From contig CANFKE010000007.1 in the NCBI GenBank assembly GCA_947447465.1, positions 51,803 through 115,802 of the forward strand: a stretch of 64,000 nucleotides of DNA, in the 5' to 3' direction. A program made the position numbers and the translations under genes. The notes beneath the pieces are model-generated. The model worked only from the letters and a program-made list of their open reading frames with translations, made no database searches and was not told the DNA's origin. This DNA is from Chitinophagaceae bacterium. GTDB lineage: Bacteria; Bacteroidota; Bacteroidia; Chitinophagales; Chitinophagaceae. Each line of letters opens with the position of its first letter. The stretch's first letter is position 1. Below are positions 44,722 through 55,631 of the stretch, one piece after another.

Positions 44722-46191
44722 ATGGCAATAAAATCTAAGTTTTATGGCGAAGGACTTACGTTTGATGATGTACTCCTTATGCCTGCTTACTCCGAAGTTC
44801 TCCCGCGCGAAGTAAACATCTCCACCAATCTCACAAAAGACATACGGATCAACATCCCGATGATATCCGCAGCTATGGACACCGTAACGGAAGCTCCGTT
44901 AGCTATAGGGCTGGCTCGTGAGGGTGGTTTGGGTATTCTGCACAAGAATATGAGCATTGAGCGTCAGGCAGATCAGGTGCGCAAGGTAAAGCGTTCTGAG
45001 AATGGCCTGATCATCGACCCGATAACGCTTATGCCCGATGCTACCGTGGGAGACGCCATAAAGATCATGAAGGAGAACCGCATTGGTGGCATTCCTATCG
45101 TTGATAAAAATCACATTCTTGTCGGCATCCTTACCAACCGCGATCTGCGTTTTGAAAAAGACACCAAAAAGAAGGTAAGTGAGGTAATGACCAAAGACAG
45201 ACTTGTTACCGCGCCATTGGGTACCAATATGCTGAAAGCAGAAGGCATACTGGAACAATACAAGATCGAAAAACTACCGATTGTAGATAAGAAAAATAAG
45301 CTCATAGGGCTCATCACTTTCCGCGATACATTGCAACTGAAGAGCCATCCTAATGCAGCCAAAGATACTATGGGACGCCTGCTGGCAGGTGCTGCTATCG
45401 GTATTACAGAAGATATACTGGATAGGGTGGAAGCATTGAAGAATGCAGGTGTGGATCTGATCACTCTTGATAGTGCGCACGGCCATTCAAAAGGTGTGAT
45501 CGATGCGGTAAAGAAAGTAAAGAAGGCATTCAAGAATATTCCTATTATAGCAGGTAATGTAGCCACAGCGGCAGGTGCTAAGGCGCTCGCTGATGCAGGT
45601 GCCGATGGCGTAAAGGTTGGGGTAGGACCAGGATCTATATGTACCACTCGCGTGGTTACTGGAGCAGGCGCACCACAGCTTACAGCTATCATTGAAGCGG
45701 CTCAGGCGCTGAAGAAAACTGGCGTTCCGGTTATTGCAGATGGCGGTATCCGTTACACAGGAGATATGGTCAAGGCCATTGCCGCAGGAGCTTCTTGCAT
45801 TATGGCAGGTTCTATCTTCGCCGGAACTGAAGAAAGTCCGGGAGAAACTATTATTTACGAAGGCCGTAAATTCAAGTCATACCGTGGTATGGGTTCTGTT
45901 GAGGCTATGCAGGAAGGATCTAAAGATCGTTACTTTCAGGATATGGAAGCTGATGTGAAAAAGTTAGTTCCCGAAGGCATTGTAGGCCGAGTGCCATACA
46001 AGGGCTACCTCAGCGAAGTAGTGCAGCAATTTGTTGGCGGACTGCGTGCAGGTATGGGCTATTGTGGTGCAAAAGATATTCCTACTTTACAGGCAGAATC
46101 TCAGTTCGTACGTATCACTGCGGCAAGTATGGCAGAAAGTCATCCGCATGATGTGGTCATTACTAAAGAGGCGCCAAACTACAGCCGTTAA
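44722..46191 (+). CDS. guaB: Inosine-5'-monophosphate dehydrogenase
   Basis: [20 protein letters not shown], two CBS domains, [23 protein letters not shown] at 44722 preferred over the TTG at 44716. Confidence 0.98.
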
Positions 46192-54357: not shown

Positions 54358-54633
54358 TATAGTTTCGCTATTTACTAATAGACTATCGGAAGGTAAGAAA
54401 GTTTAAAATGAAGTATTTAATGTAGATCATAAAGTTCGCACTCATCGAATCCTGAGTCCGATTATTTCTGGGTGCTGCTGGTAGGAATTCTCCCTATTCC
54501 CGTAAACGAACAAGATGAATAACACCCCTGCATATACTCACCCACCTGTCAAAAGATATCCACAATTTGTTAATGTGCTTTTCTGCACCATAGGCAGGTA
54601 GTAATTTGCATTCCAATGCCAACAAATGTCACA

Positions 54634-54664
54634 ACTCTGGTAAATACGCATAATTGCGTCTCCA
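54634..54664. repeat. REP-like palindromic repeat, copy B
   Basis: ACTCTGGTAAATACGCATAATTGCGTCTCCA, 2 mismatches to 48126-48156. Confidence 0.7.
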
Positions 54665-54740
54665 ATGCCACCGAGCATGCCCCGAAATCTGAGTATCATA
54701 GTCTGTCATTTGATCAGCATGATCAAAGTTCAGACAAAAA

Positions 54741-55450
54741 AATCGGGCATCATCGGGCATTGTCATTCTACATAAACAACTAACTATGAACAACTTACCC
54801 AAATTCAATGCCCGATTATTTTTTCACAACCATCGGGCATACCAACAAAACACGATCCTTGAAATCAATCAAATCCTATATGATCTTGTCATCCTGATGC
54901 TCTCGAAGGACTGATACGATCATATTTTCCGATACAATACACAATCGGGCATCATCGGGCATGGCCATTTTACATAAACAATTAACTATGAACAACTTAC
55001 GACTTTTCAATGCCCGATTATTTTTACACAACCATCGGGCACACCAACAAAACACGATCCTTGAAATCAATGAGATCATCATGATCTTGTCATCGTGAGG
55101 CAATCGAAGCACTGATACGATCATATTTTTCCGATACAATACACAATCGGGCATCATCGGGCATGGTCATTTTACATAAACAATTAACTATGAACAACTT
55201 ACGACTTTTCAATGCCCGATTATTTTTACACAACCATCGGGCACGCCAACAAAACACGATCCTTGAAATCAATGAGATCCATATGATCTTGTCATCCTGA
55301 GGCACTCGAAGCACTGATACGATCATATTTTCCGATAGAATACACAACCGGGCATGATCGGGCATGACCATTTTACATAAACAATTAACTATGAACGATT
55401 TATCATTTTCTATGCCCGATTACTTTTCTGATCGGTATCGGGCATTCCCC
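54741..55450. repeat. ~202-bp tandem repeat array, ~3.5 units, with iteron-like ATCGGGCAT motifs
   Basis: Unit starts at 54741, 54943, 55145, 55346 (spacings 202, 202, 201); each unit has ATCGGGCAT x2 (10-bp phase), inverted ATGCCCGAT, then ATCGGGCA. Confidence 0.93.
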
Positions 55451-55631
55451 CGATCATTGTGGTTGCAATCAGGAAAGACAATTTTTATCTGCATAATATT
55501 ATTCGAATAAAATCTACACATTACTATTTTTTATTCTTCTATTTTTATAGCAAACAAACGTTTTAAATTATATCAACGTCTTAGTTAGGTAGTCTCTGAT
55601 CAAGACAGATCGGTTAAAAAGTAAATACAAC

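Follow-up and report, generated by a model that had tools for sequence, protein, structure and literature searches.

A dispersed, polar intergenic repeat behind a promoter-like unit in Flavipsychrobacter

Among the described systems closest to the repeat studied here are the REPINs and REP-BIMEs with RAYT (TnpA-REP) transposases. REPINs possess conserved ends and a spacer of fixed length and form tandem clusters that include flanking sequence, and in Pseudomonas fluorescens such clusters repeat along with their flanks (PMC3116915), while atypical structures have been described for RAYT subclass 2.6 in Bacteroidota (PMC6006769). The module that we call E1 shares with these elements its shortness, an extragenic and dispersed occurrence, inverted conserved ends, a spacer of fixed length and the formation of tandem clusters, some of them with flanks. 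It does not, however, consist of two inverted REP palindromes of 20-40 bp with a GTAG or CGTC tag: its left end is an untagged direct repeat, i.e. a tandem pair of 9-mers, and its right end is a hairpin. Moreover, no adjacency of E1 to a RAYT gene was detected, and E1 is polar, lying behind a promoter-like unit (U) and a boxA-like box.

Other described systems invite comparison as well. Non-coding transcripts antiterminated by boxA, as in rRNA operons and CRISPR arrays, resemble the putative transcript of our element in having a promoter, a GnTCTTTGACAT box and long untranslated, repeat-rich DNA, whereas no rRNA, spacers or cas genes were seen in the element. CsrB-type regulatory RNAs and type III antitoxin RNAs likewise repeat a short word in what would here be an untranslated transcript, but the present element occurs at at least 20 loci per genome and has no adjacent toxin gene. 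Finally, plasmid-origin iterons and partition sites have in common with it direct repeats at 10-bp phase, an AT-rich stretch and a DnaA-box-like ATATCCACA, here located in U. An iteron or partition role had been proposed in a preliminary description of this DNA, but it finds no support in dozens of chromosomal copies (51-70 scattered copies per genome), in the absence of a linked Rep gene at the array, which is flanked by genes for an ECF sigma factor and for a T9SS protein, or in searches of phages and plasmids, which gave no match. Viral contigs gave no match either.

Within the window, i.e. the whole stretch of 64,000 nucleotides that was analysed, TRF found one large tandem array, at 54741-55427 (period 202, 3.4 copies, 91% matches, score 1113; Table 1). 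The exact word ATCGGGCAT occurs 14 times in the window (expected 0.65 +/- 0.81), 13 of them inside the array, and 16 words lie within 54741-55450 if up to one mismatch is allowed; the single word outside the array is found at 45031-45039 on the - strand. The array occupies part of a 1.27-kb gap (54358-55631), bordered on one side by a sigma-70 r2/r4 (ECF-like) gene (- strand) and on the other by the gene of a CHU_C protein with T9SS signal (+ strand). The preliminary description had rightly recognised a tandem array of about 16 motifs in this gap and two leading motifs at 10-bp phase (they are 10 bp apart), and the conserved motif spacing with diverging spacers that it had set out as a check is borne out. 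Its repeat unit of 202 bp holds as the period of this array; the unit conserved elsewhere is the 99-bp module, and the remaining ~103 bp form a spacer specific to this array, REP-like in part. With one 202-bp unit as query, the own genome yielded 33 places, mostly covering just bases ~1-103, and spacer stretches (query 132-177) match other places in the genome. A small open reading frame in E1 was considered and rejected, since several copies have lost the linker ATG that looks conserved, and a period of 202 bp shifts the frame with every unit, in agreement with the non-coding nature first proposed. About 20 independent loci, together with the strain assembly of F. stenotrophus, rule out the assembly artefact of the earlier caveat; because E1 copies recur across carriers, this assembly included, the array is due neither to chance nor to misassembly.

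Table 1. Features of the repeat array and its upstream unit (window coordinates).
Feature	Position	Strand	Remarks
U, type 2-like	54555..54609	+	GATATCCACA-TTTGTTAATGT ... GTAATTTGC; points toward array
E1 module copy 1	54742..54840	+	ATCGGGCATCATCGGGCAT, 47-bp linker, ATGCCCGATT, 14 bp, ATCGGGCAT
Array-specific spacer, copies 1-2	54841..54943	+	REP-like TTGTCATCCTGA..CTCGAAGGACTGAT inside
E1 module copy 2	54944..55042	+	final word ATCGGGCAC
E1 module copy 3	55146..55244	+	final word ATCGGGCAC
E1 module copy 4	55347..55445	+	more diverged; linker of 46 bp, ACCGGGCAT as first word
Equivalent spacers	55043-55145 and 55245-55346	+	between copies 2-3 and 3-4

E1 is a module of 99 bp, composed of ATCGGGCAY-N-ATCGGGCAT, a G-poor linker of 47 bp, ATGCCCGATT, a loop of 13-16 bp and a terminal ATCGGGCAT. 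Its spacing is nearly fixed: among 101 distinct copies, all have a head of 19 bp (9+1+9), 93 a linker of 47 bp (45-48 bp in the remainder) and all a loop within the above range. The linker consists of 48% A and 4.5% G on the array strand. The leading direct words are always 10 bp apart, and the inverted and distal words are out of helical phase with this pair. When orthologous last copies preceding the same gene were compared, identity amounted to 96% in the four 9-mers, 79% in the linker, 72% in the loop and 59% and 68% in the 60-bp flanks, against an estimated ~45-50% for unrelated DNA aligned likewise; the words are maintained by selection or by conversion. E1 arrays evolve in concert, as the nearest relative of a copy so often sits in the same array (48/99). 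The same architecture with a different 9-mer was sought in the fetched loci, where only ATCGGGCAT variants turned up. The spacers of E1 arrays are dense with other REP-like palindromes of the GTTGTCGGTCTCTGACCGACAAC, CTGTCGCGAGAG..CTCTCGTGACGA, GGGGCTGAAGATCTTCAGCCCTGCA and GTTCAGACAA types (L136 to L154, L102 to L134), and this crowding indicates that intergenic E1 units act as repeat accumulators.

All E1 copies of one array share their orientation, and the arrays have a defined upstream context. U follows a general plan of an operator palindrome (ATATCCACA..TGTGGATAT), TTTATTT, ~21 bp and TTAATTTGC. Type 1 reads AAACATATCCACA, core, TTTTGTGGATATnTTTATTT, ~21 bp and TTAATTTGC, and 42 of its 121 columns do not vary among 18 copies; a compact form with GATATCCACATTTTGTTAATGT makes up type 2. 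The right half fits a Bacteroidota promoter (TAnnTTTG-like -7). In 34 arrays U lies 5' and on the array strand (34/51, or 34/44 among those for which 600 bp or more of sequence upstream is available), and it was seen in none of the other three combinations of position and strand. In the remaining 10 of these 44 arrays the strict U pattern is missing, and some carry a degenerate U. The window belongs to the less complete loci: its U, only type 2-like, combines an operator-like half-palindrome with a Bacteroidota -7-like box, the type 1 model R2 has no match in the window, and neither boxA nor E2 is recognisable at the locus. In the three carriers of E1, model R2 finds 38, 47 and 41 copies, and in four other congeners a few weaker ones, some upstream of recA. 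A U-like palindrome with DnaA-box-like ATATCCACA/TGTGGATAT precedes recA in congeners devoid of E1 (G001:C238, G003:C480, G005:C48; L160, L161, L179), and the U operator could be part of a larger regulon.

Downstream of U, a boxA-like GnTCTTTGACAT of the form G-n-TC(T/A)TTGA(C/A) follows within 150 nt in 36 of 51 distinct copies, compared to a shuffle mean of 0.09 and to none in the opposite-strand (reverse-complement) control. This box is similar to the boxA of E. coli. The 16S leader of Flavipsychrobacter stenotrophus RB1R16 carries GTTCTTTGAAAGATTG. The third block, E2, is built of GTGGCAG repeats in 10-bp phase, a core that also occurs within U, and inverted CTGCCAC repeats; it was found 5' of the array on the same strand in 21 cases and in no other configuration. 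Direct GTGGAAG words go together with inverted CTTCC ones (C:G 35, A:T 7, contrary 4; Fisher p 2e-5 in a 2x2 table of paralogous and hence non-independent copies), a concordance which supports an inverted-repeat constraint and with which both base pairing and a common binding protein are compatible. Many U-boxA-E2 units stand isolated between converging genes, a placement to be expected of a non-coding gene. This polar context of U, boxA-like box, E2 and E1 lay beyond what the preliminary description could see.

The E1 model, built on 37 copies, recovers 51 copies in the own genome (G000), 70 in F. stenotrophus RB1R16 (G004), a strain assembly, and 36 in a related MAG (G010); the eight other congeners among the 11 genus genomes examined have none. 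Arrays occur near contig ends in G000 (C15, C16, C57, C66, C27, C31), and owing to such positions the counts probably fall short of the true copy numbers. The exact E1 pattern was also scanned for in 85,488 species, among which the window's own genome may be missing; it was present in F. stenotrophus RB1R16 and in one MAG that bears the same species label, and in no others. Judged by the identity of the DHH and LpxH-like proteins to those of G000 (95-97% in G004 and G010, 91% in the sister G005, 77-90% in other congeners), the carriers form one Flavipsychrobacter clade. The strict E2 pattern is present in the own genome alone among 399 genomes of the order, and the sister G005, which lacks E1, possesses one founder-like U-E2 unit whose words are GTGGTAG and CTACCG. 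This unit is situated upstream of a glyoxalase-fold gene (L158, G005:C154).

Orthologous loci differ even among the carriers. The EF-P gene is preceded by an array in G000 only; the LpxH-like gene by 3, 5 and 2 modules in G000, G004 and G010 (the first G000 copy lies outside the strict detector) and by none in other congeners, the last module being 128 bp from the gene start in all three carriers; and at the DHH locus two modules and U are present in G000, U but no E1 in G010, and neither of them in G004. Because of these differences, gain, loss and copy-number change of E1 must be regarded as ongoing on the time scale of the species compared.

Anatomy, nearly fixed spacing, constraint on the 9-mers, polarity, clade restriction and the single founder-like U-E2 copy of the sister are direct observations. 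In the account that we prefer, with about an even chance of being correct, the array represents the distal module, multiplied in tandem, of a multi-copy, polar, clade-specific and promoter-led intergenic element, probably transcribed and non-coding, which spread in a REPIN-like manner. In full, the element would run from U through the boxA-like sequence and E2 to one to five E1 modules. U would drive transcription of the array into a long untranslated RNA, which the boxA-like box would protect by antitermination, and the 9-mer would be read by a protein or by alternative pairing of the one inverted with the three direct words. The element would have spread as a non-autonomous repeat, its arrays lengthening by tandem duplication including the spacer, as REPIN clusters do. 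A bolder version, which we put forward tentatively and think rather improbable, sees a bacterial SINE-like element: a non-coding transcription unit with promoter and boxA, single-copy in the sister and present in dozens in one clade, whose modules U, E2 and E1 are interchangeable and share a plan of direct words, core and inverted words, the word being able to change in concert.

A comparable, minor share of probability falls to a purely selfish REPIN/BIME-like repeat, whose ends would be recognised in trans by a transposase, whose clusters would arise by tandem duplication and which would have no host function, U and E2 being a landing site or the remainder of a mobile unit. Conserved ends, a fixed-length spacer and clusters with flanks are described REPIN traits (PMC3116915), presence varies at the EF-P and LpxH-like loci, and neighbouring genes are unrelated; however, the polarity relative to U is absolute, and of the 30 RAYT-like loci in the genus, 27 have no exact ATCGGGCA beside their Y1 transposase genes and the other 3 single words only, in genomes incomplete enough for a gene to have been missed. 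The readable RAYT flanks bear other REPs, of the AAGCGTCCCGCTT type, and Y1 genes are present in genomes without E1 too. Double-hairpin repeats of the AAGCGTCCCGCTTCG / GCAAGCGTCCCGCTTGCG kind lie on either side of the RAYT-like genes at L067 and L073 and appear to be the REPs cognate to them. A reverse transcriptase was also considered as mobiliser and dismissed, RVT_1 being absent in G000 and G010 and present in G004 and non-carriers (genomes incomplete). We find it unlikely that the array is instead a double-stranded, multi-site protein-binding region, chromosome-organising or regulatory, in which ATCGGGCAT is read at 10-bp phase: the near-invariance of the 9-mer and the constant distance within the direct pair would suit it, but the marked strand asymmetry of the linker, the polarity with U, the off-phase inverted and distal words and the absence from 8 of 11 genus genomes do not.

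Regulation of a flanking gene, also suggested in the preliminary description, is not supported, and it strikes us as very unlikely that the array acts in cis on its downstream gene, which in the window is the T9SS adhesin gene. The 3' gene is indeed co-oriented in 35 of 47 arrays (p = 0.001), and the adhesin gene is preceded by an array in F. stenotrophus as well (L108). Yet the other 12 arrays point at the 3' end of a gene that runs towards them, mostly 20-70 bp off, and 9 of these 12 still have U in its usual place, so that array orientation follows U and not the gene. The downstream genes are functionally unrelated housekeeping genes; by sequence recognition we take the neighbours to include purF, SMC, EF-P, cysteine desulfurase and the LpxH-like enzyme. 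Native promoters downstream of arrays are, furthermore, common to species that lack the array, as in the promoter region of EF-P, conserved in several congeners. Least credible of all is a tandem array of independently structured small RNAs, another earlier suggestion. The inverted words could form hairpins, and for some copies the fold is better than that of shuffled sequences (z -2.4, -2.9), but predicted folds are inconsistent between copies, no covarying pair was found in 37 E1 sequences, whose words hardly vary, and the array has no Rfam match. The last result agrees with the initial view that this is not a described element; in seven U/E2/E1 loci, Rfam likewise returned nothing beyond an unrelated cobalamin riboswitch.

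The promoter-led element favoured above is an undescribed dispersed intergenic repeat with unusual polarity, which may act as RNA, as DNA or purely for itself. E1 arrays may also explain assembly breaks, several contigs of the own MAG starting or ending in them. Repeats of such abundance are usually taken as passive REP debris; these are tied by absolute polarity to a promoter-like unit and to a box of antitermination type, their words hardly vary and keep nearly fixed distances, and the sister species retains one founder-like unit. As one carrier species has a named strain (RB1R16), transcription, binding and mobility of the element are directly testable.
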